DNA from: Parvibaculum sp.
Lineage (GTDB): Bacteria > Pseudomonadota > Alphaproteobacteria > Parvibaculales > Parvibaculaceae
Length of the DNA stretch: 64,000 nt
Direction of reading: 5' to 3'
Assembly (NCBI GenBank): GCA_017642695.1
Contig: JAEPQD010000002.1
Location: forward strand, 939,425 to 1,003,424
The notes beneath the pieces were generated by a model. That model made no database searches. It saw only the letters and a list, made by a program, of their open reading frames with translations, and was not told the origin of the DNA. Positions 17,993 to 49,897 of this stretch are shown piece after piece; within the stretch, counting starts at the first letter, position 1; the number at the start of each line of letters is the position of its first letter. Both the position numbers and the translations under genes were made by a program.

Positions 17993-18229
17993 GCATCGTT
18001 TCGCTGCCGATGTCGGTTCCGCTTCTTGCTGGGGGGTGAGGCCGGAGCCGTTACGGGCAGCGATGCGTGTCCTCGTGGGGCGCTCAGGTCCGCCGCATCT
18101 CCTGGGTCCGCGAGGCACGGCCGGCCGGGGCGTGGTTCATGGAGTGGCCTCCTCTGATAAGCCGCGATTGCCCGGCCGGCCACTTATTCAAACGGAAAGA
18201 GCCGGTCCTTATGGGACCGGCTCTTTTTC
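17993..18229 (+). ncRNA. Unidentified highly structured RNA
   Basis: About 237 bases fold into consecutive stable helices. (1) GCAT 17993 and CGCTGCC 18002-18008 pair with GGCAGCG 18056-18062 and ATGC to 18066, enclosing CGGTTCCG 18014 with CGGAGCCG 18043-18050. (2) CCTCGTGG 18071 pairs with CCGCGAGG 18108-18115, enclosing CTCAGG with CCTGGG. (3) An 11-bp helix GGCCGGCCGGG 18119-18129 pairs with 18171-18181, enclosing CGTGGTT with AAGCCGCG and GGAG with CTCC. (4) A terminator ends it. A promoter-like element precedes it. I do not see signatures of tmRNA, SRP RNA or RNase P and cannot name it. It lies between pleD and convergent rpmG, so a pleD 3' UTR-derived RNA is another possibility. Confidence 0.6.
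18196..18228 (+). terminator. Rho-independent terminator
   Basis: A perfect 13-bp stem (AAAGAGCCGGTCC at 18196-18208 with its complement at 18214-18226) closes a five-base loop and is followed by T's on the plus strand. It ends the structured RNA and, read on the other strand with a weaker T-run, could also stop rpmG transcription. Confidence 0.85.
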
Positions 18230-44961: not shown

Positions 44962-45723
44962 ATGAAATCGTCGATATGGCTGCAGGCTGCTTTTGCTGCC
45001 TGTCTGCTTGCCGCAGCTTCGATCGGAGCGAACGGCGTTCGCGCCGAGAGCGAAGAATCTCACATGTGGGATTATGGTCTCGAACTGGGGCCGGAGCACT
45101 GGGCGGGTATCAAATCCGAATTCGCGACATGCGGCACAGGGCGGGAGCAATCGCCCGTCGACATCTCAGGCGAGATGGGTGCTGCAGCGGCGCCGATTTC
45201 CTTCGAATATGCGGAGGGCGAGGCGAGTGTCGTCAACAACGGGCATACGGTGCAGGTGAATGTGGCACCGGGAAGCAAGCTTTCGTTCGGCGACGGCGAG
45301 TATGATCTTCTCCAGTTCCACTTCCATACGCCGAGCGAAACGACCTTTGAAGGATTGCATTATCCGCTGGAGGCGCATTTTGTTCACCGCAACGCCGAAG
45401 GGAAACTGGCTGTAGTTGCCGTGATGATCCGCGCCGGTGCTGCGGGATCCATCGACACACTGCCCGTGCCGGAACTTGCAGGTGAAACCACGAAGATTCA
45501 GGGCGCGATCAATCCCGAGCACTTTCTGCCCCCGGAAACCGGCTACATCACCTTTAACGGTTCGCTGACAACGCCGCCGTGCAGTGAAGGCGTGCGCTGG
45601 ATCGTCCTAAAGTCGCCGGTGACAACCGAACCCGAGGTGCTTTCCCGGTTCGCCGCCGTCATTGGACGTAACAACAGGCCTACACATCCGCTGAATGGCC
45701 GAATGCTGCAGGCGAGCGAGTAG
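44962..45723 (+). CDS. Periplasmic alpha-carbonic anhydrase
   Basis: A 253-residue protein with a signal peptide cleaved near VRAES. The mature part is an alpha-class carbonic anhydrase: REQSPVDI, the two zinc histidines in LQFHFHTPSE, the third in EAHFVHRNAEGKL, and SLTTPPCSEGVRW. Cysteines Cys60-like in FATCGTG and that in TPPCSEG probably form the usual disulfide. The enzyme interconverts CO2 and bicarbonate in the periplasm. An mscS-like gene follows after about 80 bases on the same strand. Confidence 0.93.
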   Translation: MKSSIWLQAAFAACLLAAASIGANGVRAESEESHMWDYGLELGPEHWAGIKSEFATCGTGREQSPVDISGEMGAAAAPISFEYAEGEASVVNNGHTVQVNVAPGSKLSFGDGEYDLLQFHFHTPSETTFEGLHYPLEAHFVHRNAEGKLAVVAVMIRAGAAGSIDTLPVPELAGETTKIQGAINPEHFLPPETGYITFNGSLTTPPCSEGVRWIVLKSPVTTEPEVLSRFAAVIGRNNRPTHPLNGRMLQASE

Positions 45724-45802
45724 AATCCGACAGGCTTGCCGCGAGGGAGAGTGGACCTAGACTATCTGTATTGCTGCAGCGTACGGATAAGAGGTCCCTG
45801 TC

Positions 45803-46915
45803 TTGTCGGACGAACAAATTATCCCTTTCCATGAGCTCCTGGGCTGGATGCCGGCATGGGCGGCAACCGCGCTGTTGCTTGTCGTGGCGTCTGTTGTTGC
45901 CATTATCGCGCACGGTATAGCGATCAGATTGCTGACAGCGGCATTCTCGCGCCGGGCAATATACGTCCAGACGTTACTGCAGCGAACCCGGGTGCTGACC
46001 CGAGTTATCATCATCTTCATTGTCTGTGTCGTCGTCACACAGGCGGCGCCGCTTGGTGGCGATGCGCGGTCTCTCCTCAGCTCCGTCCTGGGCGCATGCG
46101 TTTTCGCGATTGCAGGCTGGACAGCGATTGTCGCTGTGCATATTGCGAGCGATCTCTATCTCAGCCGCTTCCGCATCGACGTCGAAGACAATCTGAATGC
46201 CCGAAAGCAGATAACTCAGGTCAGAATATTGCGGCGTGTCGCCGACACGATGATCGTGCTGCTGGCGCTTGGCGCCGGCCTGATGACGTTCGAGTCGGTA
46301 CGCCAATATGGCGTCAGCATATTCGCGTCGGCGGGTGCGGCGGGTCTCGTGCTCGGATTGGCTGCACGTCCGGTGCTCGAGAATCTGATCGCAGGTATCC
46401 AGATCGCGGTTACACAACCGATTCGTATCGACGACGCGGTCGTTATCGAAGGGGAGTGGGGCTGGATCGAGGAGATAACGGGGACCTATGTCGTGATCCG
46501 CATCTGGGATTGGCGACGTCTCATCGTGCCGTTGTCCTACTTCATCCAGAGGCCATTCACGAACTGGACGAGGGAAACCGCATCGATCATCGGTACGGTA
46601 TTCCTGCACGCCGACTACACGCTGCCTGTGGATGCGTTGCGCAATCATCTGCAGGAGATCGTTGGGGAAATGCCATTGTGGGACGGGAAAGTGGCTGTGA
46701 TCCAGGTGACGGATGCGACGGATCGCACAATCGAGGTTCGCGCACTTGTAAGCGCACGCACGTCACCCGAAGCGTGGGATCTGAGATGCGATGTGCGCGA
46801 AAGACTCATTTCGTGGATTCGCGACAATTATCCCGACTCACTGCCGCAAGTGCGCAGCGCTGCCGTGCCTCAAGATCGTGGAACTGTGGGAGGAATTGTG
46901 AGTCAACAAGAGTAA
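45803..46915 (+). CDS. MscS-family mechanosensitive ion channel
   Basis: The 370-residue protein has three to four N-terminal membrane segments and the MscS core: the pore helix ASAGAAGLVLGLAARPVLEN, then IAGIQIAVTQPIRIDDAVVI and the beta-domain phrase WGWIEEITGTYVVIRIWDWR. MscS channels release solutes on hypo-osmotic shock. The start is TTG at 45803 with AGAGG eight bases upstream. The channel precedes the glycine-betaine synthesis genes on the same strand. Confidence 0.9.
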   Translation: MSDEQIIPFHELLGWMPAWAATALLLVVASVVAIIAHGIAIRLLTAAFSRRAIYVQTLLQRTRVLTRVIIIFIVCVVVTQAAPLGGDARSLLSSVLGACVFAIAGWTAIVAVHIASDLYLSRFRIDVEDNLNARKQITQVRILRRVADTMIVLLALGAGLMTFESVRQYGVSIFASAGAAGLVLGLAARPVLENLIAGIQIAVTQPIRIDDAVVIEGEWGWIEEITGTYVVIRIWDWRRLIVPLSYFIQRPFTNWTRETASIIGTVFLHADYTLPVDALRNHLQEIVGEMPLWDGKVAVIQVTDATDRTIEVRALVSARTSPEAWDLRCDVRERLISWIRDNYPDSLPQVRSAAVPQDRGTVGGIVSQQE

Positions 46916-47302
46916 ACGCACCAATTCTGATCAAGTTCCAATTATTGCCCGATAAGTAGAAAAAATTCTTTTGTTACAAGGGTTTTCGTGAAATTCACGT
47001 GTCACGGTTGCCCGCAACGGAATGCTTTGTTAGCTTGCCTGCGCTGTGAGGGCATCAACGCGCCGTATCGAAAAGCATTCGGCGCTGTCCACAGTCGTAT
47101 CCTGCAGCCTTGCTGCCTTGTCGCGCGATCTGCCGGCACATTGGATGCGGCCCGTTTTCGCGCGAATGCGCGGCTTGCCTTTAGCGGGCTTTCGAAACCG
47201 ATTTCATAGGTTGCCGGCGGCGATTTGTCCGGTGCCGTTTGTGCTTTTGGCGGCGAGGTACGCACTTGCGAAGCCGTCGTCATTTCCTGAAGGAACGCGA
47301 TC
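46916..47302. promoter_or_regulatory. Non-coding region upstream of the betaine genes, with palindrome
   Basis: 387 bases with no convincing gene. It contains a perfect inverted repeat CGTGAAATTCACG at 46987-46999 (CGTGAA, one central base, TTCACG) in an AT-rich patch just after the mscS gene, a possible operator. The remainder to 47302 holds an open frame that runs into gsmT out of frame and is not credible as protein. A long untranslated leader or promoter of the betaine genes is the likely content. Confidence 0.45.
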
Positions 47303-48115
47303 ATGGAACAACTCAAGAAAAAAGAACAAGAATTCGGCGACGATCCGCTCGCGGTGCGCGAAACGGATCACTATCAGCACGAATACACCGAATCCTTCGT
47401 GGACAAGTGGGATGACCTAATCGACTGGGATAGTCGTGCGGAGAGTGAAGGACAGTTCTTCATCGACATCCTGAAGGAGCGGGGAAAGCACAAGATTCTC
47501 GACGTTGCGACGGGCACGGGTTTCAATTCCGTGCAGCTGCTGAAGGCGGGTTTCGACGTTACAAGCGTCGATGGCAGCGCGGAAATGCTGTCCAAGGCGT
47601 TTGCGAATGCACGCGATCATGGATTTGTCATGCAGACGGTTCACGCAGACTGGCGCTGGCTCAACAAGGACGTGCACGGCAAATTCGACGCGATCATCTG
47701 TCTCGGGAATTCGTTCACGCATCTTTTCGACGAGCGCGATCGTCGACGTGCGCTGGCGGAGTTCTATGCCGCTCTGAAGCATGACGGTATTCTGATCCTG
47801 GACCAGCGCAACTACGATGCGATTCTGGATCGCGGCTTCAGCTCCAAGCACAAGTACTATTATTGCGGGGACCAGGTGACGGCGGAGCCGGAGCACGTGG
47901 ACGACTCGCTGGCGCGGTTCCGCTACACGTTTCCCGACAACAGCGTCTATCACCTGAACATGTTCCCGCTGCGCAAGAACTACACGCGCCGGCTGATGCA
48001 TGAGATCGGGTTCCAGAAGGTCGTCACCTACGGCGATTTCGAGGAAACCTACAAAGAAGAAGAAGCCGATTTCTTTGTTCACGTTGCGGAGAAGACCTAT
48101 CATGGCGACGAGTAA
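47303..48115 (+). CDS. Glycine/sarcosine N-methyltransferase
   Basis: This 270-residue SAM-dependent enzyme methylates glycine to sarcosine and sarcosine to dimethylglycine, the first steps of betaine synthesis in halophiles such as Ectothiorhodospira and Actinopolyspora. It has the SAM loop ILDVATGTGFNSVQLLKAGF, followed by VTSVDGSAEML and ICLGNSFTHLFDERDRR, typical of GSMT. GAAGGA lies before the ATG at 47303. It overlaps the next gene by 14 bases, giving one translational unit. Source of transfer is unknown; base composition matches the neighbours. Confidence 0.92.
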   Translation: MEQLKKKEQEFGDDPLAVRETDHYQHEYTESFVDKWDDLIDWDSRAESEGQFFIDILKERGKHKILDVATGTGFNSVQLLKAGFDVTSVDGSAEMLSKAFANARDHGFVMQTVHADWRWLNKDVHGKFDAIICLGNSFTHLFDERDRRRALAEFYAALKHDGILILDQRNYDAILDRGFSSKHKYYYCGDQVTAEPEHVDDSLARFRYTFPDNSVYHLNMFPLRKNYTRRLMHEIGFQKVVTYGDFEETYKEEEADFFVHVAEKTYHGDE

Positions 48116-48941
48116 ATCGAACGCGGTCGCGCAGGCCGAAGCCTATTACGACAGCCCGGATGCGGATTCGTTCTACTTCACCATCTGGGGCGGCGAAGAC
48201 ATCCATATCGGGATGTACAAGGATGATAATGAGCCGATCGTGCCGGCGAGCCACCGGAATGACGAAACGCTCGCTTCGATGCTGAAGGGCGTGGACGAAA
48301 ACACGACGGTACTCGACATCGGCGCGGGTTATGGCGGCGCGGCGCGGCACCTCGCGAAGAGCTATGGCTGCAAGGTCATCTGCGTGAACATCAGCGAGAC
48401 GCAGAACAAGCTTAACCGCGAACTCAACAAGAAGGCCGGCCTCGACGACAAGGTCGAAGTGCTGCATGGCGACTTCGAAGCCATTCCGGCGGACGATAAC
48501 AGCATCGACATCGTGTGGTCGCAGGATGCGATCCTGCACAGTGGCAACCGGCCGCGCGTGCTGGATGAAGTAAAGCGCGTGCTGAAGCCGGGCGGGCAGT
48601 TTATCTTCACCGATCCAATGCAGTCGGACGATTGCCCGGAAGGCGTGCTCCAGCCTATCCTCGATCGCATTCATCTTGAGACGCTCGGCAGCTTCGGCTT
48701 CTACGACAAGGAGCTGACAGCGCGCGGCTTCGAGAAGCTCGACGTCAAGGAGATGACGCATCAGTTGCGCCGCCATTACTGGCGCGTGGGCGAGGAGCTC
48801 AAGGCGAACTACGAGCGCCTGACCAAGGGTTCCAGCACTACCTATCTCGATAACATGATCAAGGGGCTTGGTCGCTGGGTCGACGGCGCCGACAAGGGGT
48901 ATCTCGCCTGGGGCGTGATGCATTACCGCTTGGCAAAGTGA
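48102..48941 (+). CDS. Sarcosine/dimethylglycine N-methyltransferase
   Basis: A 279-residue SAM-dependent enzyme completing betaine synthesis: sarcosine to dimethylglycine to glycine betaine. Hallmarks are EAYYDSPDADSFYFTIWGGE near the start, VLDIGAGYGGAARHLAKSYG, and IVWSQDAILHSGNR, typical of SDMT. The ATG at 48102 lies inside the end of the preceding gene. The last 12 bases carry the -35 element of the following leader transcript. Together the two genes allow de novo betaine production from glycine. Confidence 0.93.
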   Translation: MATSKSNAVAQAEAYYDSPDADSFYFTIWGGEDIHIGMYKDDNEPIVPASHRNDETLASMLKGVDENTTVLDIGAGYGGAARHLAKSYGCKVICVNISETQNKLNRELNKKAGLDDKVEVLHGDFEAIPADDNSIDIVWSQDAILHSGNRPRVLDEVKRVLKPGGQFIFTDPMQSDDCPEGVLQPILDRIHLETLGSFGFYDKELTARGFEKLDVKEMTHQLRRHYWRVGEELKANYERLTKGSSTTYLDNMIKGLGRWVDGADKGYLAWGVMHYRLAK

Positions 48942-48958
48942 TCGCCCGGGACTAGTTT
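48930..48958 (+). promoter_or_regulatory. Putative promoter of the Trp-rich leader
   Basis: TTGGCA at 48930-48935 and TAGTTT at 48953-48958, separated by exactly 17 bases, form a plausible housekeeping promoter whose -35 lies within the last codons of the dimethylglycine methyltransferase gene. The predicted start is near 48965, followed by a 7-bp palindrome (CCGGAACGGTTCCGG at 48966-48980). Confidence 0.5.
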
Positions 48959-48996
48959 TCTCCAGCCGGAACGGTTCCGGCGACGAGGATCGGAAG

Positions 48997-49044
48997 ATGA
49001 TGAACGCAGCACACACTGCAAACGGGAACTGGTGGACCACCTGA
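48997..49044 (+). CDS. Leader peptide with tandem tryptophans (trp-leader type)
   Basis: A 15-codon frame encodes MMNAAHTANGNWWTT, with GAGG eight bases before the first ATG. Two adjacent tryptophan codons lie just before the stop at 49042-49044, the hallmark of a trp-attenuator leader. Immediately downstream are the alternative helices of an attenuator. The tandem Trp codons would slow the ribosome when charged tRNA-Trp is scarce. The gene behind it is not a trp biosynthesis gene. Confidence 0.7.
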   Translation: MMNAAHTANGNWWTT

Positions 49045-49111
49045 AGGGTGGCCCGTTCCGTCGTCTGACGATCAAACCGGACAAGGCCGCCCCGCAAGGA
49101 GGCGGCCTTTT
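49024..49111 (+). promoter_or_regulatory. Transcription attenuator with mutually exclusive helices
   Basis: Segments 1 and 2 pair: GGAAC 49025-49029 with GTTCC 49055-49059, and CCACC 49037-49041 with GGTGG 49047-49051. Segments 2 and 3 pair as antiterminator: GGGTGGCC 49046-49053 with GGCCGCCC 49085-49092. Segments 3 and 4 form the terminator AAGGCCGCC 49083-49091 with GGCGGCCTT 49101-49109, followed by T's. Helices 2:3 and 3:4 exclude each other. Stalling at the Trp codons would free segment 2 and favour read-through. This is classic trp-type architecture. Confidence 0.7.
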
Positions 49112-49114
49112 CGT
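49083..49114 (+). terminator. Attenuator terminator hairpin
   Basis: The 9-bp stem AAGGCCGCC with GGCGGCCTT, a nine-base loop and four T's is a good intrinsic terminator. It is the 3:4 helix of the attenuator; it would also stop transcripts reading through from the betaine genes. Confidence 0.8.
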
Positions 49115-49183
49115 TTGCGGATTTCTTCATCGAAAAGCGTTTCCGGCGGGTGCGGCTTTCAGGCCGCTCGCAAGGAGGAGCGA

Positions 49184-49897
49184 ATGATGATGACGTCCGA
49201 TTTCAAGCACGAGAGAGAATTCGATCTCGGCGGCGTCGTACCCTGGGGACGACGTTTGCAGGAATATGCCGCCTTTTTTGCGCTCGACGATCTGGCCGGT
49301 TTCGCGCCCGTGCTCGATGCAGGGGGCGGGCCTTCTTCCTTCGCGGCGGAGGCAACGAAAATGGGGATCGCGGTCACCGCGTCCGATCCGATCTACCGGT
49401 TCGGTGAGGGCGATATCAGGCGGCGCTTCGAACAGACCGCGGAGGCCATGCGGGTCGGCATGCGCCGGGCGCACTATCGTTTCAACTGGTCCTACTACGG
49501 CTCGGAAGATGCGGTGCACCGGTTGCGGCGGGAGGCGCTGGAGCTGTTTCTCGGCGATCTGGAGACGGGAAAGAGGGAGGGGCGCTATGTCCCGGCTTCG
49601 CTGCCCGCGCTCCCTTTTGCTGATGGTGCGTTCAGGCTCGCTCTGTCATCGCATCTGCTGTTTCTGTATGGCGACGACCTCGATTTCGACTTTCATCTGG
49701 CGGCGCTTCGCGAGCTCATGCGGGTGGCGGAAGAGGTGCGCATCTTTCCGCTGGTCAATCTCGACGGGTTGCCATCCAGTCATTTGCCGGGTGCGATGAG
49801 CGTTCTGCGCGGTGAGGGCGTGAGGACGGAACTCGTAAGCGTTCCATTCGAATTCCAGAAAGGAGCGACGCGGATGCTGAAGCTCAGGAAGTACTAA
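49184..49897 (+). CDS. SAM-dependent methyltransferase-like protein
   Basis: The 237-residue protein has a Rossmann-like start VLDAGGGPSSFAAEATKMGI followed by VTASDPIYRF, suggesting a class I SAM-binding fold; the second half (LPALPFADGAFRLALSSHLL, LRELMRVAEEVRIFPLVNLD) also fits a methyltransferase. FDLGGVVPWGRRLQEYAAFF near the N terminus is characteristic of a hypothetical family I have seen but cannot name. AAGGAGGAG lies before three consecutive ATGs, so the start is uncertain by two codons. It lies behind the Trp attenuator. Substrate unknown. Confidence 0.75.
   Translation: MMMTSDFKHEREFDLGGVVPWGRRLQEYAAFFALDDLAGFAPVLDAGGGPSSFAAEATKMGIAVTASDPIYRFGEGDIRRRFEQTAEAMRVGMRRAHYRFNWSYYGSEDAVHRLRREALELFLGDLETGKREGRYVPASLPALPFADGAFRLALSSHLLFLYGDDLDFDFHLAALRELMRVAEEVRIFPLVNLDGLPSSHLPGAMSVLRGEGVRTELVSVPFEFQKGATRMLKLRKY

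Follow-up and report, generated by a model that had tools for sequence, protein, structure and literature searches.

Attenuators that sense tryptophan usually control genes for the synthesis or charging of tryptophan, which is a matter of custom and not of mechanism. The closest described systems are found in rhizobia. According to excerpts of the published accounts, the trpE(G) genes of Sinorhizobium, Agrobacterium and Bradyrhizobium carry a short trpL leader whose second half contains consecutive Trp codons and which forms an antiterminator or a terminator depending on tryptophan supply (PMC7298713, in excerpt), and the small RNA RcsR1 is transcribed from the rnTrpL position (PMC7143759, in excerpt). 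Attenuators that consist of a Trp-codon leader, an antiterminator and a terminator have also been predicted upstream of trpS in some Streptomyces (PMC1262725, in excerpt).

Here, we describe a leader of this type in a stretch of 64,000 nucleotides (“the window”; G000:C2:939425-1003424) from the 3.62 Mb genome of a Parvibaculum species. As far as the excerpts go, the leader shares the anatomy of rhizobial trpL, and its length and the position of its Trp codons are similar to those of Bradyrhizobium trpL. It differs in preceding a methyltransferase gene instead of trpE(G), and in its Shine-Dalgarno sequence and predicted 5' UTR; the RNA of Sinorhizobium begins at the trpL ATG. Moreover, the attenuators of trpS and of trp operons serve genes that make or charge tryptophan, whereas the target in Parvibaculum has no known tryptophan link. 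Very probably, we are dealing with a known mechanism at an unexpected target, in that an attenuator of the Trp type is conserved upstream of an orphan methyltransferase gene. The open-access matches listed, a body of literature without most subscription papers, described neither a Trp attenuator upstream of a methyltransferase nor a leader of this type in Parvibaculum.

Anatomy of the leader

The features of the leader and its gene are given below; the promoter-like pair, the Shine-Dalgarno sequences and the leader frame are as read from the sequence.

48930-48935 and 48953-48958, forward strand: promoter-like pair, TTGGCA and TAGTTT, separated by a 17-nt spacer
48965-48981, forward strand: stem-loop GCCGGAACGGTTCCGGC (GCCGGAA/UUCCGGC), where the transcript is predicted to begin
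48985-48989, forward strand: Shine-Dalgarno sequence GAGGA of the leader open reading frame
48997-49044, forward strand: leader open reading frame MMNAAHTANGNWWTT, 15 codons and stop codon TGA
49030-49035, forward strand: tandem Trp codons TGG TGG (codons 12-13), the putative sensor codons
49037-49041, forward strand: segment 1, CCACC, which can pair with GGUGG at 49047-49051 (1:2)
49046-49053, forward strand: segment 2, GGGUGGCC, partner of segment 1 or segment 3
49083-49092, forward strand: segment 3, AAGGCCGCCC, common to the antiterminator (2:3) and the terminator (3:4)
49101-49111, forward strand: segment 4, GGCGGCCUU, with the U tract, where the terminated leader is predicted to end
49172-49179, forward strand: Shine-Dalgarno sequence AAGGAGGA of the methyltransferase gene
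49184-49897, forward strand: orphan class I SAM-methyltransferase, 237 aa, the putative controlled gene

In the 2:3 pairing, GGGUGGCC (49046-49053) joins GGCCGCCC (49085-49092); in the 3:4 pairing, AAGGCCGCC (49083-49091) joins GGCGGCCUU (49101-49109), with a T run at 49108-49111 and a segment 4 core, GGCGGCC (49101-49107), followed by TTTT. Sequence and folds agree on an intrinsic terminator with a U tract before the methyltransferase gene, and the terminated leader RNA would measure about 147 nt. The fold of the 151-nt leader beats 200 of 200 dinucleotide shuffles (z -5.35).

The sequence-only reading had already noted much of this layout. The GAGG upstream of the leader is there, as are the promoter-like pair and the segments that can fold as 1:2, 2:3 or 3:4 with a T-tailed hairpin. 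Its 15-codon length and its tandem Trp codons also stand, but the pair is not quite at the end of the frame as had been claimed, since two Thr codons follow it. A generic scan of 48880-49260 listed neither a promoter nor a terminator. The promoter-like pair matches 8 of 12 consensus bases, below the limit of 9 in that scan, and the terminator loop of 9 (or a bulge) is taken to lie outside its loop limit of 3-8. Between terminator and gene (49112-49183), a motif like CATCGAAAGGCGC appears to be common to several relatives.

Predicted folding and ribosome position

The layout suggests an attenuator that would sense charged tRNA-Trp and control the single gene at 49184 in cis. RNA polymerase would start near 48965, with a ribosome trailing on the leader frame. 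When Trp-tRNA is ample, the ribosome would reach the stop codon and cover segment 2 (49046-49053), leaving segments 3 and 4 to pair, and transcription would end near 49111. Under a shortage of Trp-tRNA, it would stall on TGG TGG and cover segment 1, so that segments 2 and 3 would pair before segment 4 is made and transcription would read through into the methyltransferase gene. Tryptophan shortage would thus switch the methyltransferase on.

The pairing of segment 3 with segment 2 was calculated for 27 leaders in the RNA as it would stand just before segment 4 is made. The ribosome was represented by a mask of 14 nt whose first base is that of the A-site codon. The pairing score is the sum of the pair probabilities divided by 8, and can exceed 1; an antiterminator was called at scores above 0.5. 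On this basis, the antiterminator is predicted in 27 of 27 leaders when the ribosome occupies the first Trp codon, likewise in 27 of 27 when it occupies the second, and in 0 of 27 when it stands at the stop codon. In silico, antiterminator and terminator are predicted to be mutually exclusive, with the position of the ribosome on a presumably translated frame with tandem Trp codons setting the choice between them. Shuffles of the spacer reach the observed pairing in 0-7 of 100 cases per genome. In five leaders, the frame runs on through segment 2 and ends after a further 15 nt. The same rule applies to them, so that the predicted mechanism would be kept despite the later stop.

An identical test, passed by scores above 0.5 on both Trp codons and below 0.3 at the stop codon, was applied to the leaders and to control terminator loci, which were read as if Trp codons stood at the position given by a covariance model of the leader (see below). 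It was passed by 27 of 27 leaders, as against 7 of 25 controls; the controls had been chosen by the leader model and are therefore harder than random terminators, and the 27 leaders, being related, are not independent of one another. The 25 controls were drawn from 28 loci, leaving out two on short contigs (L141, L147) and one that turned out to be a true leader (L138). Of the possible end states, the complete terminator has the highest stability, which is what a classical attenuator should show, and the choice between the two structures would therefore depend on timing. Without a ribosome, the antiterminator is predicted to be favored in 9 of 27 leaders, which is not ideal and counts against a classical attenuator.

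Conservation in Parvibaculaceae

The methyltransferase is present in 27 of 40 genomes of the order, and in each of these we read the 420 nt upstream of the gene (less at contig ends). The leader precedes the gene in 27 of 27 genomes, which confirms that the layout is more than chance and bears out the expectation that the same leader would be found before homologues of the 49184 gene. A lack of conservation of the tandem Trp codons and of the pairing, which would have spoken against an attenuator, was not observed: the pairing segments stay, and the Trp pair is intact in 26 of 27 leaders, the exception being TGG CGG (Trp-Arg) in G002. The segment words are nearly invariant across the genus, and 27 of 27 leaders have GGCGGC, then C or T, then TTTT. 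An ATG exactly 30 nt 5' of the Trp pair is found in 22 of 24 Parvibaculum leaders and in 0 of 3 others.

TGG TGG might alternatively be kept as a pairing word (GGUGG with CCACC) and not as codons, which would make the element a structural switch or a plain terminator without sensing by the ribosome. The sequence GGTGGACCACC is indeed self-complementary and nearly invariant in the genus. However, 27 of 27 relatives keep the leader frame and a start codon for it, whereas the remaining codons drift, the peptide before the Trp pair ranging widely (for example MTYSAVMTGN, MIEAIRINGA and MTRMFLCNKA). Moreover, CCACC is altered to CCGCC or CCGUC in G029, G033 and G030, and TGG TGG stays; in G029 and G033, a G-C pair stands in place of A-U at the center of the five-pair 1:2 helix. 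We regard a role as a mere pairing word as very unlikely, also in view of a leader from outside the family that is described below. Among the points against an attenuator, covariation is absent within Parvibaculum, where the helices are nearly invariant: 0 of 14 pairs changed on both sides, and shuffles did equally well on every measure.

Putative signals for expression are conserved as well. The AGGA of the leader Shine-Dalgarno sequence is invariant in 20 alignment rows (20 of 24 Parvibaculum leaders). In 24 of 24 Parvibaculum leaders, the best promoter-like pair has TTGGCA or TTGGCG and a spacer of 17 nt, at a distance from the leader that varies among them. Shuffles of single genomes reach the score of this pair in 0-28% of cases (21-28% for G020 and G015). 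Where the upstream gene is one for a sarcosine/dimethylglycine N-methyltransferase-like (SDMT-like) protein, conservation of TTGGCA is not independent evidence, because the hexamer encodes the last residues of that protein; the pair is, however, also kept in 6 Parvibaculum leaders without the SDMT-like gene upstream. For the 5' stem-loop, 20 of the 24 Parvibaculum leaders could be aligned, leaving out G007, G015 and G020, which have a short stretch after the promoter and no such stem-loop, and G021, for which this alignment gave no promoter match. In this alignment, 3 of 7 pairs changed on both sides, which 170 of 500 shuffles reach, and the percentage paired is reached by 16 of 500 shuffles. 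The covariation signal is weak and suggestive only.

A covariance model built from the 24 Parvibaculum leaders gives 67-106 bits for these same leaders, as it must by construction. Nothing exceeds 32.1 bits in the 13 genomes of the order that lack the methyltransferase; the matches in the Parvibaculum genomes among them (G010, which is 74% complete, G013 and G019) are noise, and four loci in the noise range (L217-L220) have no small open reading frame with tandem Trp codons. The leaders of G029 (24.5 bits) and G033 (29.7 bits), which were found by reading upstream of the methyltransferase, fall inside this noise, and the model consequently says little about distant leaders.

Leaders outside the family and before other genes

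Among 17 homologous methyltransferase loci examined outside the family, a comparable leader occurs at one, L103 (JAKOWB010000206.1, 2795-3000), in a metagenome-assembled genome (MAG) titled Pseudomonadota. Its methyltransferase is 55% identical to ours, and the leader, MTSVQRLSREFYWFA, and a terminator are at the same place. Instead of the Trp pair it has TTC TAC TGG TTC (FYWF), four consecutive aromatic codons, which suggests that what is selected is the aromatic character of the codons rather than the word TGGTGG in the DNA. The predicted antiterminator score is 0.99 with the ribosome on the first Phe codon, 0.99 on Tyr, 0.61 on Trp, 0.04 on the last Phe and 0.01 at the stop. Judging by these folds, the leader may sense aromatic amino acids in general; coming from a single MAG, it is a lead only. 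The other 16 loci have no small open reading frame with tandem Trp codons upstream (L108 offers 164 nt for reading). L113 and L114, with Lachnospiraceae/Clostridiaceae titles like L110-L112, were left out of this reading, and L124 and L125 are one split gene.

A search of 385 class genomes with the leader model gave matches in 72 of them at E 0.01. Among the matches for which loci are listed (30), 2 are from Parvibaculum; of the 28 others, 27 lack a small open reading frame with tandem Trp codons and one, L138 (G217:C3:280185-280262, from another alphaproteobacterium), has a leader that ends in FIWWRSF and is followed by a terminator. It passes the folding test, and the gene downstream is trpS (TIGR00233, 230 bits, over the cut-off).

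trpE loci

As the sequence-only reading had proposed, we located trpE and looked for a leader of its own. Matches of trpE type occur in 40 of 40 genomes of the order. In the genome of the window, trpE (566 bits, over the cut-off) sits elsewhere, with its start at the end of a long gene that precedes it; a fused trpE(G) over the cut-off is absent (best 219 bits vs 739), and the 8 kb around trpE hold no small open reading frame with tandem Trp codons on its strand. Such a frame (6-45 aa) is absent within 500 nt upstream of trpE in 29 of 30 loci read, 22 of them from Parvibaculum. The remaining one (L212), from G417, another genus of the same family, has two. One of these, MNVRERLMMYWWRN, lies between the upstream gene and trpE, directly before trpE and with a terminator after it. 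By sequence this is a candidate attenuator of trpE outside Parvibaculum; it fails the folding test as set up.

The position of trpE might be taken to mean that the gene once stood behind our leader and was lost, leaving a functionless relic before an unrelated gene. It would fit that rhizobial trpE(G) bears such a leader (PMC7298713, in excerpt) and that the trpE of the window's genome is found elsewhere without one. However, the start codon, the Trp pair and the three alternative pairings are kept across 27 genomes, down to 56% protein identity, and the leader stays with the methyltransferase when the neighbors change: the SDMT-like gene lies upstream in 15 of 24 named Parvibaculaceae loci, which correspond to 24 of the 27 genomes, and is absent in 9 of 24, with the leader present in all. 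A relic of this kind is, in our judgment, very improbable.

Relation to RcsR1 and rnTrpL

The sequence-only reading had offered, next to control of the methyltransferase by tryptophan supply, a free small RNA in the manner of rnTrpL. In its full form, this alternative holds that the leader mainly gives rise to a trans-acting small RNA (about 147 nt), perhaps together with a leader peptide, like rnTrpL/peTrpL, which derive from trpL in Sinorhizobium, and that the downstream gene is incidental or a secondary target. The strong predicted terminator and the stable predicted 5' stem-loop agree with it, and the genome's own trpE, being leaderless, could be a target. The best-scoring Rfam model on the leader is also that of RcsR1/rnTrpL (RF02552, 32.2 bits), which matched 3 of 8 loci at E 0.05, with 38.5 bits for the P. 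indicum leader (L072) as the best. However, these scores are far below the gathering cut-off of 60, and five matches over the 385 class genomes (27.6-31.9 bits, under stricter filters that did not list the window's own match) are all without a Trp-pair leader. Because the window scores barely above these five, we do not accept the score as evidence of homology to RcsR1/rnTrpL, although a remote relation is conceivable, since the P. indicum score exceeds all five. The leader also lacks the position upstream of trpE(G) that goes with RF02552. It resembles trpL in its predicted way of working, and we do not file it as RcsR1.

Further points speak against a mainly trans-acting product. Leader and methyltransferase go together in 27 of 27 genomes, no clear copy is detected by the leader model in the 13 genomes of the order that lack the gene, and the leader peptide before the Trp pair is not conserved. 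Comparison and folding argue strongly for the part of the earlier proposal that concerned control in cis, while little that is specific speaks for the small RNA, which we consider unlikely as the main function. The two readings are compatible and do not exclude each other. Elsewhere in the window (18068-18186), there is a match to another small RNA, Rfam RF02500 Atu_C6 (EcpR1), at 87.3 bits against a cut-off of 60.

The methyltransferase and its neighborhood

The 49184 gene had been called methyltransferase-like and not trpE, and this holds: its product has a predicted class I SAM-dependent methyltransferase fold with a glycine-rich SAM motif. It is not a trp gene, and lies outside the usual targets of Trp attenuators in synthesis and charging. 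The nearest records are from an uncultured Rhodobiaceae MAG (90%) and from Parvibaculum. At E 1e-10, the methyltransferase is found in 8 of 385 genomes of the class and 5 of 398 of the phylum, the window's own genome being part of both samples. Plasmid homologues occur in 22 records, from cyanobacteria, Rhodococcus, Peribacillus, Acinetobacter and others; the 20 that are listed show 32-43% identity and carry no annotation beyond methyltransferase or hypothetical protein. A substrate was named neither by PDB sequence searches, PADLOC and fold searches nor by the plasmid homologues. PADLOC gave a match to mad2, with 5 of 26 members and a best E of 1.1e-4, which we take as generic and do not accept as an identification.

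Upstream of the leader lie genes for a glycine/sarcosine N-methyltransferase (497 bits, above the cut-off) and the SDMT-like protein (370 bits, below the cut-off of 550). Together with genes for a carbonic anhydrase and an MscS-type channel they form a row (44962-48941) that looks like an osmoadaptation (betaine) block. Downstream of the methyltransferase gene, an alpha/beta hydrolase gene lies on the opposite strand.

Implications

Taken together, comparison and folding suggest that the leader is very probably a ribosome-mediated attenuator, which would control the 49184 methyltransferase by tryptophan-dependent termination of transcription. A methyltransferase is not the target that one would expect, and we have counted this against the attenuator. 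If the assignment is true, a trp-type attenuator would serve a gene outside the usual classes of synthesis and charging.

It is conceivable, if rather unlikely, that the Trp attenuator of Parvibaculaceae has been detached from tryptophan synthesis and now serves as sensor for a distinct response to tryptophan shortage (or, in the lineage of L103, perhaps to shortage of aromatic amino acids). The methyltransferase would then be an unrecognised effector that acts in aromatic metabolism or on the translation machinery, and the terminated leader would in addition act in trans on the leaderless trp genes. More generally, an attenuator names the amino acid that controls its gene, and for a methyltransferase family that is widespread in a patchy manner this would be a clue to function, directing attention to conditions of tryptophan limitation.
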